Shown: piece after piece, positions 16,150 to 23,021 of the stretch | How the letters are laid out: the number at the start of each line of letters is the position of its first letter | Numbering within the stretch: the stretch's first letter is position 1 | Virus record (IMG/VR): IMGVR_UViG_3300021379_000906 | Span: 1 to 42,129 of that record | DNA from: a virus | Length of the DNA: 42,129 nt | Direction: 5' to 3' (one strand) | Position numbers and translations under genes: made by a program | The notes under the pieces: generated by a model | The model's database searches: none | What the model saw: only the letters and a program-made list of their open reading frames with translations | Told to the model about the DNA's origin: nothing

Positions 16150-16530
16150 ATGAAAAAGCTACTTTTACTCTGTCTTTTATTTCCGACAATGGCTTTTGCT
16201 AATATTAGAGTCATTTCTGAAGTTCCTAGAATGGTTACTATTTACCAAAAACAATGTGAACTGAAGCAAGTATTGGTGGACAATCAAACAAGAAACGGTA
16301 TTCTTGGTGGTTTGTTAGGTGCTGCTATTGGAACACAAATCGGCGGTGGGTCTGGTAGAGATATTGCTACTGTAGTTGGTGCAATATCAGGCTCAAACAT
16401 AGCTAGAAGTCGAACCCAAGAAAGATTAGAATATCGCAATATTTGTACTGAAGTTCCTGTTACTGTAGAAGCAGGAAAAATTGTGACCTTTGAATACAAT
16501 GGCACTGTATTTACTCAAATTATAGAATAA
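16150..16530 (+). CDS. Exported glycine-zipper protein
   Basis: 126 residues. A classical signal peptide (MKKLLLLCLLFPTMAFA, cut before NIRV; no lipobox Cys at +1) precedes a glycine-zipper segment at about residues 52-80 (GILGGLLGAAIGTQIGGG, then VVGAISGSNIA) of the 17-kDa-antigen/2TM type. Two Cys flank this segment (Cys36, Cys98) and could form a disulfide in the periplasm. Glycine zippers pack in membranes and can oligomerise. Next to the SleB hydrolase this suggests a role in lysis or envelope disturbance, though a virion or superinfection-exclusion role is not excluded. Confidence 0.75.
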   Translation: MKKLLLLCLLFPTMAFANIRVISEVPRMVTIYQKQCELKQVLVDNQTRNGILGGLLGAAIGTQIGGGSGRDIATVVGAISGSNIARSRTQERLEYRNICTEVPVTVEAGKIVTFEYNGTVFTQIIE

Positions 16531-17093
16531 TGTTCAAACTCAGACTGATAGTATTCTTACTGTTAGCAGTAATAGTTGTCCTGCTAAACTATAAAAGGCC
16601 TGTCAATCAGGTAGTGGATATAAATCCTATGCCTGTTGAGATAGTGTTCCCCACAGGACCTACTTACAGGGAAGTTGAGTGTCTAGCTAAAAACATTTAT
16701 TTTGAAGCTAGAGGTGAACCTGAAATAGGACAGATTGCTGTTGGCTATGTTGCAATCAATAGGCAAAAGTCTCAAAATTTTCCTCAAGATTTGTGTGAGG
16801 TGATTTATCAAGGTCCTATATCGAATTGGTTCCTTAAAGCTCATGGAAGAGTTGTACCTTTGCGAGATCGCTGTCAGTTTAGTTGGTGGTGTGACGGCAA
16901 AAGTGATACTCCTATAGATATGTGGGCTTGGGGTCGTGCAATGGACGTTGCTGCAGGAGTTATAAATTACATATATGAAGATCCTACTGAAGGAGCTTTA
17001 TGGTATCATAACACAGAAGTTAATCCCTCCTGGGCTGCATCTATGATACCGACAACACAAATAAACGAGCATATTTTTTATAGAATGGAGTAG
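16530..17093 (+). CDS. Membrane-anchored cell-wall hydrolase (SleB/Hydrolase_2 family), probable endolysin
   Basis: 187 residues, starting on the last base of the previous stop. Residues 4-20 form an uncleaved signal-anchor (LRLIVFLLLAVIVVLL). The SleB domain begins near residue 47: CLAKNIYFEARGEPEIGQIA with the catalytic Glu59, VGYVAINR, CQFSWWCDG and WYHNTEVNPSW in family order. SleB-type enzymes cut peptidoglycan. The N-terminal anchor would let it reach the periplasm through the host Sec system, as signal-anchor endolysins do. With the glycine-zipper gene it makes the most likely lysis module. Confidence 0.85.
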   Translation: MFKLRLIVFLLLAVIVVLLNYKRPVNQVVDINPMPVEIVFPTGPTYREVECLAKNIYFEARGEPEIGQIAVGYVAINRQKSQNFPQDLCEVIYQGPISNWFLKAHGRVVPLRDRCQFSWWCDGKSDTPIDMWAWGRAMDVAAGVINYIYEDPTEGALWYHNTEVNPSWAASMIPTTQINEHIFYRME

Positions 17094-17097
17094 TAGA

Positions 17098-17391
17098 GTG
17101 ATTACGGACGTAATAACCAATGAATTTATGGTAGAAAAACAAAAACCCACAGACGTATTTTTAATTACAAAGAAGTTTAAGACTAGCTCTCAATTTTCAC
17201 AATTCATTGAAAAAGAAGCAGTGGTGTCTAAATCTTCTTGTATCGACATCTTAATAGATTATTGTGTGAAAAATGATATTGAAATTGAAAGTGTGAATAA
17301 ACTTCTCAGTTCTAGTTTGAAACAAAAACTAGAGGTTGAAGCACAAGACTTAAACTTACTAAAGGTGAAATCAAATAAACTACCCTTTTAA
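17098..17391 (+). CDS. gp33: Late transcription coactivator (gp33-like)
   Basis: 97 residues from GTG 17098 with GGAG 7 nt upstream. The order FLITKKFKTSSQFSQFIEKEAV, SSCIDILIDYCVKNDIEIES, then LLSSSLKQKLEVEAQDLNLL matches the phage late-transcription coactivator family. This family bridges the sliding clamp and host RNA polymerase at TATAAATA promoters together with the sigma gp55. Its neighbour gp59 and the nearby gp32 reproduce the T4 33-59-32 order. T4 gp33 is 112 residues. Confidence 0.8.
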   Translation: MITDVITNEFMVEKQKPTDVFLITKKFKTSSQFSQFIEKEAVVSKSSCIDILIDYCVKNDIEIESVNKLLSSSLKQKLEVEAQDLNLLKVKSNKLPF

Positions 17392-17392
17392 T

Positions 17393-17980
17393 ATGGAACC
17401 TTTCACGGTTTATAAACTATACTTAGCTCTTAAACTGCACTTCACTACAGACTCTTACGACATTACAAAACACAAGGGTGCTGTTCGTGGCAAGAAAGAA
17501 ACTTTCCTCAAAAGAAAAGATCTCACCGCTATTCGTAAACTTGCAAGGGACTACAAGAAAAAAGAAATCATAGATCTTCTTGTTGCTAACTTTGTTTCGG
17601 GTAATAAGTGGGGAGGCATCTTTGATGAATTTTGTATTGAAAACTATAAAAAGTTCTTGACAACACGAAAAAGAATGTTATATAATTTAGATACAGACTT
17701 AGATAATATGTTGTTTAGAATGGAAAGGGACAATATCAAGTCTGTTACTAATGAAGGAGAACACCCACTAATCTTCAAGATGTTTATGGGTGGGGATATA
17801 AAACTTGAAACACTTGTTATTATGGAAAAACTATATCCTTTTATTGAAGATTACACTAATGATTTTGTCCTTGAGGATATTTGTCGTTTAGTGAGAAAAT
17901 ATAAACCCTTTGTTCATATTGACAAAGATGAAGTAAAACAGAGATTTGCAGGGAAATTTGCACAATGTCTAAATCAGTAA
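17393..17980 (+). CDS. gp59: Helicase loader gp59
   Basis: 195 residues (T4: 217). VYKLYLALKLHFTTDSYDITKH at the N-terminus matches T4 gp59 (VYKLYLMIKQH), followed by the all-helical pattern KKKEIIDLLVANFVSG and a C-terminal half with LIFKMFMGGDIKLETLVIME. gp59 loads the gp41 replicative helicase onto gp32-coated DNA. It sits directly upstream of gp32 as in T4, with one small gene between. A perfect sigma70 promoter lies inside it. Confidence 0.88.
   Translation: MEPFTVYKLYLALKLHFTTDSYDITKHKGAVRGKKETFLKRKDLTAIRKLARDYKKKEIIDLLVANFVSGNKWGGIFDEFCIENYKKFLTTRKRMLYNLDTDLDNMLFRMERDNIKSVTNEGEHPLIFKMFMGGDIKLETLVIMEKLYPFIEDYTNDFVLEDICRLVRKYKPFVHIDKDEVKQRFAGKFAQCLNQ
17656..17685 (+). promoter_or_regulatory. 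Consensus sigma70 promoter inside gp59, facing gp32
   Basis: TTGACA at 17656-17661, an 18-bp spacer and TATAAT at 17680-17685. Both hexamers are perfect. It would give gp32 and the small gene before it extra transcription without gp33/gp59. Being inside a coding region, it needs a mapped start to be sure. Confidence 0.5.
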
Positions 17981-18144
17981 GAAGAAGACCCGAGGAGAAA
18001 AAAATCCATAGGGTGGGAAAACAAAAGCCTGAACGTGAACTCGATCAGGAATTAAGACGTATAAATAGTGTTGAGGATCTAAAAAATATGGATTTAGATG
18101 AAGTCCTCGACACATATACAACGATAGATACTAATACACATTAA
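17965..18144 (+). CDS. Small charged protein between gp59 and gp32
   Basis: 59 residues, start ATG 17965 overlapping the end of gp59 by 16 bp in another frame. The N-terminal half is basic (SVRRRPEEKKIHRVGKQK) and the C-terminal half acidic (VEDLKNMDLDEVLDTY). I do not recognise it. The position inside the 33-59-32 block suggests a replication or late-transcription accessory peptide. Confidence 0.65.
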   Translation: MSKSVRRRPEEKKIHRVGKQKPERELDQELRRINSVEDLKNMDLDEVLDTYTTIDTNTH

Positions 18145-18162
18145 TACAACGCTATACAACGC
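18116..18162 (+). promoter_or_regulatory. ATACAACG repeats in the gp32 leader
   Basis: ATACAACG occurs at 18116, 18144 and 18154 (the last two extended to ATACAACGC, 10 bp apart), just before the gp32 ribosome site (CGGAGA) and ATG 18181. T4 gp32 represses its own translation by binding its leader, so an unstructured repeated site here is a candidate operator. This is inference from position only. Confidence 0.35.
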
Positions 18163-18180
18163 ATATACGGAGAAATACAT

Positions 18181-19089
18181 ATGTCATTCAATTCACTATC
18201 TGACCTAAGAAAAGCTCGTGGTAACTTTGACCAGTTGATGAAGGAAGTCGAAAAACTCGATGCCCCTCAACAACGTAACGATGATTCAAACGAGTGGAAA
18301 CCCACAGTAGATCAAGCAGGCAACGGATACGCTGTTATTCGTTTTCTTCCAGCACCTCAGGGTGAAGATATGCCTTGGGTTCAACTTTGGAATCATGGCT
18401 TTCAAGGTCCTACAGGTAAGTGGTATATCGAAAACTCACTTACTACACTAAAACAAACTGATCCTGTTTCAGAGCTGAACTCTGAACTTTGGAACAGTGG
18501 TGTAGAGGCAAACAAGGATATTGCACGGAAGCAAAAGCGGCGCCTCTCATATTACGCTAATATTCTTGTAGTCGAGGATTCAGGTAATCCTTCAAACAAC
18601 GGTAAAGTATTCCTTTACAAGTTTGGTAAAAAGATCTTTGACAAAATCAAAGATGCAATGCAGCCTGAGTTCCAAGACGAAGCACCAATGAATCCTTTTG
18701 ACTTTTGGGATGGTGCTAACTTCAAACTCAAGATTCGTCAGGTAGAAGGCTATCGTAATTATGATAAGTCTGAGTTTGCAGCCCCTAGTCCTATTGCAGA
18801 GGAAGACTCAGCGATTGAGGCTATTTGGACACAGCAGCACTCACTAGCTGCTATTGTAGATCCTAGTAACTTCAAGTCATATGACGAACTCAAAAAGAAG
18901 TTGGACTTTGTGTTGGGTAACAGTGCCAAGGTAGGCACAGCAGAAAGTATTTCTAGTCAGACCGGAGATGCTGCTGATGACAATTACATGGAGAAGGTAA
19001 CACAAATGTCAAAGGCTGAGACTTCAGTTTCAGATGATGACGAGGATGATACAATGTCCTACTTTGCTAAACTAGCAAATGATGATTAA
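18181..19089 (+). CDS. gp32: Single-stranded DNA-binding protein gp32
   Basis: 302 residues (T4: 301). The basic N-terminal arm (MSFNSLSDLRKARGNF) for cooperative binding, the OB core (AVIRFLPAP, LWNHGFQGPTGKWYIENS, RRLSYYANILVVED, VFLYKFGKKIFDKI, NFKLKIRQVEGYRNYDKS) and an acidic C-terminal tail (SDDDEDDTMSYFAKLANDD) are all present. Of the T4 zinc ligands only the His (His72) remains; the three Cys positions are Ser86, Asp94 and Ser97. It organises replication and recombination by coating ssDNA and recruiting gp59. A strong terminator follows at once. Confidence 0.97.
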   Translation: MSFNSLSDLRKARGNFDQLMKEVEKLDAPQQRNDDSNEWKPTVDQAGNGYAVIRFLPAPQGEDMPWVQLWNHGFQGPTGKWYIENSLTTLKQTDPVSELNSELWNSGVEANKDIARKQKRRLSYYANILVVEDSGNPSNNGKVFLYKFGKKIFDKIKDAMQPEFQDEAPMNPFDFWDGANFKLKIRQVEGYRNYDKSEFAAPSPIAEEDSAIEAIWTQQHSLAAIVDPSNFKSYDELKKKLDFVLGNSAKVGTAESISSQTGDAADDNYMEKVTQMSKAETSVSDDDEDDTMSYFAKLANDD

Positions 19090-19094
19090 AAACT

Positions 19095-19116
19095 AGGGGG
19101 CTTCGGCCCCCTTTTT
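19095..19116. terminator. Bidirectional terminator between convergent operons
   Basis: GGGGGC-TTCG-GCCCCC with an extra A-T pair, followed by TTTTT on the plus strand. On the minus strand the AAAAACTA to the left gives TAGTTTTT after the same stem. It closes gp32 on one side and the tape-measure-like gene on the other, whose stop codon (19117-19115) lies in its T-run. Confidence 0.9.
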
Positions 19117-21499
19117 AATACCCAAAAGAAAGATCGTTTCTTCTCTGTATCACACTCTCACTATTTCTAACAGTATCGGGGGCAACATTAATTTGTTGTT
19201 GTCCTGCTCCCCCTGTTGTGTTATTGTTTGTCACATTATTAATTACCGTGGGAGAGTTTTGTGTTTGATCTGGTAAAGTATTGTTCAGTGCTTGTCCAGT
19301 AGGAACTACTTGTGAATTGGCCAGAGATTGTGGATTGGTATAGGCTTGTGTAACTTGAAGGCTCTCGGGCGTACCGCCAAATTTTTCTGTAAATTCTGCG
19401 TCTAATTGACGGCGTTGTGCTGCTTTTCTTCCTGCAGGCTGATTTGCATTATTAATTTCTTCTAGCCTATTATTATATTCTTCTACATCTTCTGGACTCA
19501 TTTGAGATTGTTGTTCTAATTCCACCAATCTATTGTATTCTGCTTCTTCTCTAATCTCATCTGCACTTCTGCCAACTAATCCAAATGACAAAGTATTTAA
19601 CATAGAACTGCCAGCATTTCCAGCTCTTTCAAAAAGTCCTGCATTAGGATCTGCCATTGCACCTTGAAAGCCTCCGTACACAGCAGTACCTGCTGTGATT
19701 GCTGCACCGATCGGTCCTGCAAATCTTGCTGCTCCCCCTAAAGCTCTACCCGCTCCCCCTAAAAATTTACCTGCTCGACTAAACATACCACCACCTCTGC
19801 TCACACTAGGCGCTGGTCCTCTTCCAGGTGCTGAAGTAGAAGGAGCAGTAGTCCTAGGTGTTGATGTAGAAGTAGATGCTGTAGTAGGCCTGGTAGTTGA
19901 GGTAGAAGTTGTGGATCTACTTCCCTGTCTTTGCCTTGTACGTTCCTCTCTTACCTCTCTAGCTCTTTGATCTCTGGCTGTTTGTTCTTGTGGAGTTCTT
20001 TGTGAGGGGTCTGTTCTAGGAACTGTGTTTCTAGGAGTTGTATTTGCAGTAGGTCTACTTCCACCGCCACGTATACCGCTACGGCCGCCACGTCCCCCTC
20101 TACTTCCTCCACGAAAACCTCTACCACCACGAAGACCGAGGTCAAGTCCCATTCCTCCACCCATACCACCAGCAAACACACCATCTTCAGCTATTTTTTT
20201 GAGTATGTCTCTTATTTCTTCTAGTAAATCAACCTCATTGGGGCCTTCTCTATCAATACCTGATTTAAACTGACCGCCTGCTGTTGGAGTAGATGATTCT
20301 TTACTAACAGCTGCTATTTCTTTTGCAGTTTCTTGAGCAGTTTCTTTTATGACTTCTTTGGTTTCTTGATTTGTTTCTTTTGTAGCTTCTTTTTCTTGAA
20401 TAATTTGATTTGTACTGTCCGTCAATGCTTTAGCGACATCCGGTAAGGGTTGTTCTTCTTGCAAATTTCTTAGAAGCACTTCTTCTTTAGACTTAGCTCC
20501 GAATCCAAGAAATCCCGTGTCACCAAAACCTAAAGCTGCTTTTAAACTGTTATCTGCTTTTCTTTTATTACTAGATACTGCTGCTGTTGTTAAATTACCA
20601 GTTACACTGTCTAAACCTAATTTATTACTCAAATCTGGAGATTGTTCTTTTATTTGCTCTACCTGTTTTATAATATCTTGTATAGAGGATACACTTTGTT
20701 TTCCAGTTTTAGTTTGAGCTTTTGCTAGTTGTTCAATCAGTGTTTTTAATTGACCTTTTAATCCATCTCCCTGTTGATTCAGAATGTCTTGTACTTCAAT
20801 AGTATTTTTTCCTAAATTCTCAGAAATCGTAGAAGTGGCTTGAGTTATTTCTGATTTTTGTATGTTTCCTAAATTTAAATTGCGCCCAGACGCAGCAGTT
20901 TTTACAGCTTCTACTAAACCCTTAGCTTTTTCACCACCACTGAATCTTCCAGTGTTCATATCTCTAAGATTAGCTCCTCCAAAGCCTTCGTCTAGTATAT
21001 TCCTACCTTCTACTCTATTTGCCATTGTAAAATTTTTCTTAGGTGTTGTGTTTGATTTTGTAGGTGATGGCGAGGGTGATGGCGAGGGTGATGGCGAGGG
21101 TGATGGCGAGGGAGTTGACATATTACTGTTATCCTCCATATCTTCATCAAAGTCAAAATCCTCATCAATCAGTGTATATCCTAGCTTGCTTGAAATAGCT
21201 GCCCAAGCCTCAGGATTTTGATTATCTCCGTCTACAAAAAGAGCAGGTTTAAGATCCGGGTTTTCCTTTAAATACTGTGTAGTTGCTTTTTCTATTGCGT
21301 TTCCCAATACTCCTCTATACGGACCTGTATTAACATCCCAAACCCAAACTCCACCATAGCCTTCTTCCTCAGTAAGCTCTGCTATAGAAACAAACTCATT
21401 ATCATCACTGGTTACTTTATTGCCGTCAATACTAAATTTAGTATCCGGATATTTTTGTTGTAACATATCAACTAAGATATTTTGAAAAACTGAATTCAT
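19115..21499 (-). CDS. Large tail protein, probable tape-measure protein
   Basis: 794 residues, last gene of the minus-strand tail unit; its ATG overlaps the stop of the gp26 -1 frame extension (ATGA). In order: an N-terminal alpha/beta domain (about 1-125) with a GNAT-like flavour (RGVLGNAI, NPEAWAAISSKLGY); a Ser-Pro repeat (about 132-147); a long helical, Gln/Lys/Glu-rich middle (about 160-440) with KETNQETKEVIKETAQETAK; a Gly-Arg-rich segment (about 455-490); a Thr/Ser/Pro linker; a hydrophobic Gly/Ala segment (LGGAGRALGGAARFAGPIGAAITAG, about 580-610); and an Asn/Gln-rich end. Position right after the tail assembly chaperone candidate and the helical plus hydrophobic layout point to the tape measure (T4 gp29 equivalent), but I see no clear sequence match. 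Confidence 0.6.
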   Translation of the reverse strand: MNSVFQNILVDMLQQKYPDTKFSIDGNKVTSDDNEFVSIAELTEEEGYGGVWVWDVNTGPYRGVLGNAIEKATTQYLKENPDLKPALFVDGDNQNPEAWAAISSKLGYTLIDEDFDFDEDMEDNSNMSTPSPSPSPSPSPSPSPSPTKSNTTPKKNFTMANRVEGRNILDEGFGGANLRDMNTGRFSGGEKAKGLVEAVKTAASGRNLNLGNIQKSEITQATSTISENLGKNTIEVQDILNQQGDGLKGQLKTLIEQLAKAQTKTGKQSVSSIQDIIKQVEQIKEQSPDLSNKLGLDSVTGNLTTAAVSSNKRKADNSLKAALGFGDTGFLGFGAKSKEEVLLRNLQEEQPLPDVAKALTDSTNQIIQEKEATKETNQETKEVIKETAQETAKEIAAVSKESSTPTAGGQFKSGIDREGPNEVDLLEEIRDILKKIAEDGVFAGGMGGGMGLDLGLRGGRGFRGGSRGGRGGRSGIRGGGSRPTANTTPRNTVPRTDPSQRTPQEQTARDQRAREVREERTRQRQGSRSTTSTSTTRPTTASTSTSTPRTTAPSTSAPGRGPAPSVSRGGGMFSRAGKFLGGAGRALGGAARFAGPIGAAITAGTAVYGGFQGAMADPNAGLFERAGNAGSSMLNTLSFGLVGRSADEIREEAEYNRLVELEQQSQMSPEDVEEYNNRLEEINNANQPAGRKAAQRRQLDAEFTEKFGGTPESLQVTQAYTNPQSLANSQVVPTGQALNNTLPDQTQNSPTVINNVTNNNTTGGAGQQQINVAPDTVRNSESVIQRRNDLSFGY
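21063..21110 (-). repeat. Four perfect 12-bp tandem repeats encoding Ser-Pro
   Basis: GGTGATGGCGAG is repeated four times without change. On the coding strand each unit reads Ser-Pro-Ser-Pro. It joins the N-terminal domain to the rest of the tail protein and could expand or contract by slippage without changing frame. Confidence 0.9.
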
Positions 21500-21675
21500 T
21501 TTTCTTTAGCCCTTTCTGCTTTTTCCTTTAAATGTCCTATCAACATACTAATGTAAACATCTCTTTCCCAGGGCATCATTGATTCTACTTCTGTTAAACT
21601 CCAATGATGTTCTTGTATCAGTAAAAAATTCGTTTGATAATAATTTTCAATCGAATCCTGAGAAAGAGTTAAACG
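21496..21675 (-). CDS. -1 frame extension of gp26 (tail assembly chaperone GT-type tail)
   Basis: 59 codons from 21675 to the TGA at 21498-21496, lying between the gp26 stop and the tape-measure-like gene. The peptide has NYYQTNFLLIQEHHWSLTEV followed by MMPWERDVYISMLIGHLKEK, a compact helical unit of the type seen in the downstream part of tail assembly chaperones. The frame is open upstream only to 21711 and contains no ATG, GTG or TTG before an internal ATG at 21579, which would remove more than half of it. It is best read as translated by -1 frameshifting from gp26, giving a 287-residue fusion. The T4 gene 51 product that follows gp26 is much longer, so I do not equate them. Confidence 0.75.
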   Translation of the reverse strand, partial: RLTLSQDSIENYYQTNFLLIQEHHWSLTEVESMMPWERDVYISMLIGHLKEKAERAKEK

Positions 21676-22358
21676 AAAAAATGTTCGTATCCATTTATTA
21701 CAATAGTATTTTTATTTGCACAACCTGTACAATCCCACGAAACTGTGTTTGCTAGTGTCGGTAATTGTGATAAAAATTCTTCAGCTTCATTATATTTTTC
21801 TATTGTAAGAGATTCTAAAAAATCTACTATCTCTTCAATATTATCATTATTAGGTCTAGTAATTTCCTCATCATCAAAAATATATTCTATACAACTACTT
21901 AATATTTCAGATTCATTCATATTTTCCAAATTCATTTGAATTTCAGAAGATGGATACTTTAATACAAATCCTGCAGAATCATTTATTAATATTTTTTTAG
22001 TTTCACTTTCAGTGTTTCCTATAAAATCAAAATCATCTATTTTCATGTCATAGTTTACTACTGTTTGACAAGAACCACACATAAGCTCTAGTCCTTGTAT
22101 TTCACCTACTGATTTTTCTCTTAACTTTAAAAACAACCATTGTAATTTGTGAAGAGGTAAATTTTCTACATTTAATCCTTCGGTGCAATTTTCTACTACT
22201 TGCTTACAAGCAGAAAGCATACCAGCTTTATTTTCACTTTCTACAGCTAAAGTTAATATTTTACTCTCTTTAACTAAAAATGGTCTACATTTTATAATAT
22301 CAGTGGTTCCAGGTAAAGTTACTTCAAATTTTGGAACATCAATTCTTGGCAACGCCAT
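21669..22358 (-). CDS. gp26: Baseplate hub/tail assembly protein gp26
   Basis: 229 residues from ATG 22358 (an in-frame GTG lies one codon earlier; AGGAG is well placed for the ATG). N-terminal PRIDVPKFEVTLPGTT and KCRPFLVKESKIL match the gp26 family of marine T4-like phages. Two CxxC pairs (Cys94/97 in MCGSCQT, Cys210/213 in DCTGCAN) form a zinc-ribbon pair; the first comes after a helical region, the second just before the stop. In T4, gp26 is needed to assemble the hub. The 3' end carries the slippery heptamer described separately. Confidence 0.82.
   Translation of the reverse strand: MALPRIDVPKFEVTLPGTTDIIKCRPFLVKESKILTLAVESENKAGMLSACKQVVENCTEGLNVENLPLHKLQWLFLKLREKSVGEIQGLELMCGSCQTVVNYDMKIDDFDFIGNTESETKKILINDSAGFVLKYPSSEIQMNLENMNESEILSSCIEYIFDDEEITRPNNDNIEEIVDFLESLTIEKYNEAEEFLSQLPTLANTVSWDCTGCANKNTIVINGYEHFFV
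21675..21681 (-). promoter_or_regulatory. -1 ribosomal frameshift site T TTT TTC
   Basis: The last sense codons of gp26 are CAT TTT TTC GTT then TAA. In phase this is X XXY YYZ with X=Y=T and Z=C, the canonical bacterial -1 slippery heptamer. After slippage the next codons are CGT TTA ACT, which enter the 59-codon open frame. No strong downstream hairpin is obvious by eye. Confidence 0.75.
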
Positions 22359-22385: not shown

Positions 22386-23021
22386 TTACGTCACATTATT
22401 AGTGCTATCAGTATTACTAATATCTCTTTTTATAGCTTCATTTCTCAAATCACTTCCTCTAAAACCGCCCGAAACTGAATTGTCCTCATAATTGGCATAC
22501 GTGGTCATCCATCGTTTAGCCGACATGGACAATGATGTTCTGAGTTGTTGTGTGTTGCCCCAAGCAACAGGTGTTATGTTCAAAAGTTTTGGCATAGCTT
22601 CAATAAATTTCCATTCAGCTATAACCTCGTCCTGTGTGTCTAAAGACTTGACCTTTACGTCTGCGGTTATGTCACTATAAAAACTAACTTCTTTTGTTCT
22701 CATGTTTGCAGTATGATTTATCCAAGCCTCGAAATATGTTCTTAGGCTCCATTTTTCATCTACAAGAAAAGTAAATACAATTTCAGTGGACAAAAATTCT
22801 AAGTTTTGTGTTCGGTATTCTGTCCAAGGTCCTATTTTGTAAGGCACATTAGTTGCCGAAAGCCCAGGCAACTGCGCCTCTTCACACATTAATGTTGTGA
22901 GAAAATTTGCTCCTAACTTTTTACAACCACCTATTTCTACCTCAAATCTGTCCGAACGTGGAAGATGCTCTCTTCTCATCCGGTGCATAAACTCTTGGTA
23001 GTTTGTCATTGATTTAGGCAT
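22386..23021 (-). CDS. Tail-tube-fold protein (gp19/gp54-like)
   Basis: 211 residues, overlapping gp2 by 8 bp; AAGGA is well spaced before ATG 23021. The pattern LPRSDRFEVEIGGCKK, ANFLTTLMCEEAQLPGLS, STEIVFTFLVDEKWSLRTYF and ADVKVKSLDTQDEVIAEWKF fits the beta-sandwich of T4 tube proteins (gp19) and of the tube-starting baseplate protein gp54. Its place just before gp26 and the tape-measure candidate mirrors the tube-chaperone-tape-measure order of many tailed phages. Main tube subunit, tube initiator (gp54) and terminator (gp3) cannot be told apart here. Confidence 0.65.
   Translation of the reverse strand: MPKSMTNYQEFMHRMRREHLPRSDRFEVEIGGCKKLGANFLTTLMCEEAQLPGLSATNVPYKIGPWTEYRTQNLEFLSTEIVFTFLVDEKWSLRTYFEAWINHTANMRTKEVSFYSDITADVKVKSLDTQDEVIAEWKFIEAMPKLLNITPVAWGNTQQLRTSLSMSAKRWMTTYANYEDNSVSGGFRGSDLRNEAIKRDISNTDSTNNVT

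Follow-up and report, generated by a model that had tools for sequence, protein, structure and literature searches.

A conserved slippery site at the end of gp26 in an uncultivated marine T4-type phage and its relatives probably yields short and long tail assembly chaperones

The window, the whole 42,129-nucleotide stretch of viral DNA analysed here (IMG/VR record IMGVR_UViG_3300021379_000906), carries a gp26 gene with a tube-fold protein upstream and a tape-measure-like protein downstream. The features of the locus, in the order of transcription, are:

22386..23021, minus strand: tube-fold protein (gp54-like tube initiator or tube); matches phrog_45, tail tube, at E 8e-22, and Pfam Phage_T4_gp19 under its cut-off
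21669..22358, minus strand: gp26, 229 aa, putative short form of the tail assembly chaperone (TAC-N) and normal translation product
21675..21681, minus strand: slippery heptamer T TTT TTC, in phase with gp26, seen in the sequence and across 191 loci
21496..21711, minus strand: -1 frame encoding a gp51-family extension (TAC-C), identified by phrog_634, the C-terminal part of phrog_150, a T4 gp51 profile match and its pN/pS
21496..22358, minus strand: predicted frameshift product (TAC-NC), 287 aa, complement(21675..22358) joined to complement(21496..21675), deduced from the slip site
21625..21659, minus strand: candidate downstream stem-loop, starting 15 nt past the heptamer, -7.4 kcal/mol, weak in the window phage
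19115..21499, minus strand: tape-measure-like protein, 794 aa, starting inside the stop of the -1 frame, so named for its position and its long, Gly/Ala-rich stretches

The gp26 gene starts with the ATG at 22358 and ends with the TAA at 21671-21669, and its minus-strand 3' end reads GAA CAT TTT TTC GTT TAA. The -1 frame has no stop between 21711 and 21499, and the TGA that ends it (21498-21496) shares bases with the ATG of the next gene at 21499. The first ATG, GTG or TTG in this frame lies only at 21579, +92 from the gp26 stop and about half way through the extension. A slip at the heptamer would add the 59 codons at 21675-21499 to 228 residues of gp26 (228 + 59 = 287 aa), with the predicted junction peptide ...YEHFFRLTLSQDSIENYYQ.... 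The gp26 end as the initial annotation read it, its coordinates for the heptamer, the -1 frame and the start at 21579, and its 287-aa fusion all hold when checked on the sequence. The heptamer alone proves nothing: TTTTTTC occurs 33 times in this AT-rich window (22.5 expected), and the weight of the site lies in its conservation.

Both parts of the predicted fusion belong to families known from T4. The gp26 protein matches the profiles of Pfam PF12322 T4_baseplate (E 8.6e-45) and phrog_150 (E 4.1e-46) along its whole length, as far as residue 228, and the best-fitting family for the -1 frame product is the gp51 family phrog_634, 'baseplate hub assembly catalyst' (E 2.8e-26). The latter match is found in all 19 aligned extension sequences. 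The extension also matches the C-terminal part of phrog_150 (E 5.8e-8), the N-terminal part of which corresponds to gp26. A search of NCBIfam gave no match. AlphaFold models gp26 with confidence (pLDDT 90) and the extension as helical (pLDDT 82). Compared by Foldseek with 350,542 PDB chains, the gp26 model had as its top match the HK97 tail assembly chaperone 2ob9 at a non-significant E of 0.37; Foldseek found nothing significant for the 61-aa extension, and a PDB sequence search by the gp26 profile found nothing relevant.

The 794-aa protein encoded downstream gave no significant match in a profile search. In one relative (L071), the protein encoded at the corresponding position hits phrog_794, 'tail length tape measure protein', at E 5e-10, which is a soft match in low-complexity sequence, and the identity of the window protein as a tape measure is read from position and composition. 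It has a Ser-Pro repeat run near residue 135, and the length of the protein at this place varies widely among relatives, from 569 to 1168 aa. At 16530-19089 of the window, a cell wall hydrolase (PF07486) adjoins a gp33-like late-transcription coactivator (PF16805), gp59 and gp32.

T4 has two homologues of the window gene. T4 gp26 (208 aa) consists solely of a PF12322 domain, with ...GLKEFFELL as its last residues, and T4 gp51 (249 aa) has a gp26-like PF12322 domain and then the phrog_634 extension, in one frame. The window gp26 profile matches T4 gp26 over its full length, almost to the last residues (E 4.6e-18), and the extension profile matches residues 200-243 of T4 gp51 (E 1.1e-5) and does not match T4 gp26. 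Both T4 proteins are thus homologous to the window gp26, and gp51 is homologous to the -1 extension as well. Because gp26 corresponds to the short form and gp51 to both domains, these profiles indicate that T4 carries the short form (gp26) and the long form (gp51) as two genes. T4 genes 26 and 51 are on opposite strands, whereas the window has one gene with a slip site. The two Phe codons are TTC TTT in T4, which form no slippery heptamer, and TTT TTC in the window. T4 reportedly uses genes 26 and 51, and several T4-like groups are said to keep frameshifting.

The split into two genes also occurs in phiAS4, phiP4-3, PhT2, SFHK24 and RB43, and the one-gene slippery form is kept in some Straboviridae (nt-1, phiAS5, AS-yj and LPCS28). 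A tree built from 41 domains places the six gp51 domains in a single group (100/98) and sets every one of the twelve copies from two-gene phages apart from all one-gene copies (99/97). The tree is consistent with a single duplication in the T4-type lineage, although long branches make its inner order unsafe. The marine phages and several other T4 relatives, judged from their sequences, probably make both forms from one gene by -1 frameshifting. The pair in RB43 (L097 3001-4294) is in tandem on the same strand, with 51 ahead of 26 and an 8-base overlap, whereas the T4 pair is divergent.

Conservation of the slip site was assessed in four scans. The first, of viral contigs in IMG/VR, covered the 80 nearest relatives (35-90% identity), all 80 of which read CAT TTT TTC, one codon, stop; it was biased, as one of its six seeds (INGYEHFF) sat on the slip site. 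Three more scans were seeded from S-PM2, phiAS5 and Cygsa01 proteins, with no seed on the slip site, and in-phase TTTTTTC lay ten bases ahead of the stop in 100 of 100 readable loci. The combined set of 191 loci comprises the window, 180 IMG/VR relatives and ten named phages, and falls into 70 clusters at 80% protein identity. Conservation across related gp26 loci, which the initial annotation had left to be checked, is complete in this set: the slip site is in phase at the gp26 3' end in every one of the 191 loci analysed.

The pattern of variation is that of a slip site. The heptamer is TTTTTTC in 69 of 70 clusters, and Phe codons elsewhere in these genes are 73% TTT and 27% TTC. The codon that precedes the two Phe codons varies among those for His, Ser, Asp, Asn and Ala and ends in T in all 70 clusters (log10 P about -14 if the clusters are taken as independent, a P that is too small since they are not fully so). 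The six T's are invariant, and the seventh base is C in most phages, G in P10VF and phiM9, T in phiN3 and A in XG4. These exceptions belong to other lineages; P10VF is within the clustered set. This free seventh base is what the X XXY YYZ pattern predicts. The slippery site is not universal: the heptamer is absent from Pseudomonas phage Cygsa01 and Klebsiella phage cp16, in which the -1 frame is nonetheless kept. Where NNT TTT TTN would be expected ahead of the gp26 stop, Cygsa01 (L096 3270-3320) and cp16 (L205, close to where the gp26 match ends) read ATT TTC, and their -1 frame is gp51-like. A stop-start overlap, TAATG, is present in Cygsa01. These two phages may use a poorer slip site or reinitiation instead.

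Is the -1 frame a protein, and if so, could it be a separate one? Between the gp26 stop and the -1 stop, the median pN/pS in the window clade is about 0.19 for the -1 frame versus 1.1 and 3.4 for the other frames, by which measure the -1 frame is a protein under purifying selection. None of 68 clusters has a 0-frame that stays open for 50 codons past gp26. Two outcomes that would have spoken against the initial annotation, relatives with a good start codon in place of the slippery site and loss of the -1 frame with no purifying selection, were looked for and not seen. In 19 of 31 window-clade clusters, the first 20 -1 codons contain no ATG, GTG or TTG. Many cyanophages have an ATG two codons past the gp26 stop. 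An ATG so placed is what one would expect if gp51 were a separate small protein, made from its own start or by reinitiation past the gp26 stop, and gp51 is in fact annotated as its own gene in cyanophages such as S-PM2 and P-SSM2. We give this explanation only a small chance. The window frame has no start codon before 21579, an early start is missing in most window-clade and many cyanophage loci while the heptamer stays constant, and in T4 the extension is fused within gp51 rather than free.

RNA folding downstream of the site bears on how the frame is changed. Relative to control sequences that keep the -1 protein with synonymous codons redrawn, there is a folding signal at +12 (mean z -2.2 over 69 clusters) that is near 0 by +60. 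The mean z is -2.7 in cyanophages, -2.9 in window clade B, -1.1 in window clade A and -0.9 in other T4 relatives. Cyanophage stems lie 5 to 9 nt past the slip site (14 bp and -13.2 kcal/mol in S-PM2; -15.3 in P-SSM2) and are of two types, GTTCTATAATAAT and ATGGCTCAT; other types occur in the window's relatives. Against column-shuffled alignments, the two cyanophage types score z -12 and -5 and window clade B z -3.6, and clade A, to which the window belongs, has no support (z 0.4). The window phage's own stem (21659-21625, z -1.6 to -1.8) is suggestive only. Across 41 relatives, several pairs of that exact stem are broken, and it is not conserved. RNAalifold found no common structure in a mixed-clade alignment, and the clades were folded apart instead. 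The downstream stem-loops, strong in cyanophages and weaker in the window phage, may stimulate frameshifting. The stem sequences of the two cyanophage groups are unrelated to each other, and those at L118 2721-2755 and L085 2034-2064 are near-perfect stem-loops within coding sequence, 5 to 9 nt past the slip site.

Slippage of RNA polymerase on the T run, instead of ribosomal slippage, could also change the frame, as there is a run of six T's at the site and one extra U would give the identical frame. Transcriptional slippage usually needs runs longer than six, so the short run disfavours this explanation. In addition, the T run is lengthened just once (T7 in phiN3), and the stem-loops near the site, downstream of it, point to the ribosome. 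The chance of polymerase slippage is smaller still than that of a separate gp51. Homopolymer runs are prone to errors, but the reading that the frame break is a sequencing or assembly artefact, or that a fusion gene has decayed, is in practice refuted: 191 loci, drawn from numerous studies and including finished phage genomes, are all broken at the same base, and the -1 frame is under selection.

We conclude, with a probability of about 0.93, that gp26 is the T4-type tail assembly chaperone and is extended by -1 frameshifting to the 287-aa long form. The initial annotation had proposed as much, and every sequence mark of it is present. We infer the slippage itself, its efficiency and the chaperone and binding roles along the following lines. 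Most ribosomes would stop at the gp26 TAA and release the 229-aa short form. In a minority, the tRNAs on TTT and TTC of T TTT TTC would move back one base and re-pair on TTT TTT; these ribosomes would miss the stop one codon on and add the 59 gp51-family residues of the long form. If the two forms act as G and GT do in lambda, where slippage occurs at G GGA AAG, the tape measure protein would be covered by many short and few long forms, and the helical extension would recruit the tube protein. The lambda gene adjoins the tape measure gene and has a -1 frameshift near its 3' end that gives a short and a long form (PMC5009743); the proposed likeness is one of gene arrangement and frameshift, and no sequence similarity is claimed. 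The chaperone gene of Pseudomonas phage Adele and other Vandenendeviridae is similarly predicted to undergo a conserved -1 frameshift at a poly-T sequence, and every genome keeps its -1 frame open, but the motif is GTTTTT and the phage family is another (PMC12846349).

Among phages with long tails, a 2016 review still counted T4 as the exception (PMC5009743). Vladimirov, Gautam and Davidson have since identified the chaperones of the T4-like group (2022, Virology 566:9-15; cited by PMC10885494 and PMC12846349). As cited there, this work found that some T4-like phages have separate short and long genes (PMC10885494) and that short-form genes of T4-like phages contain poly-T slippery sequences (PMC12846349). 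As far as these citations go, the window gene is of the same family with the same short and long forms, and differs in coming from an uncultivated marine member. The initial annotation, which knew of no description for T4-type gp26, was mistaken on this point. The principle of frameshifting was already published in 2022, and the interpretation is right and not new, the site being the T4-type version of a frameshift known from many tailed phages; new here are the conservation statistics, the stem-loops and the tree consistent with one duplication.

The window thus holds the frameshifting form of a gene pair that is split in two in T4, and what is gained is confirmation in uncultivated marine phages along with candidate stimulators. 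We lean towards a picture in which a constant six-T slip site is tuned by clade-specific stem-loops, and in which, within the T4-related phages, a single gene duplication took the place of frameshifting and fixed the two forms in genes 26 and 51. In many public cyanophage records, gp51 is either listed as a gene of its own, with a doubtful start, or overlooked. In the record of ACG-2014e (L003), gp51 is left without any annotation. In cyanophage and pelagiphage records such as those of S-PM2 (L004 2525-2698) and Pelagibacter phage Mosig (L094 4762-4896), it is annotated as a free gene that begins at the earliest convenient start, so that the conserved beginning of the extension is lost.
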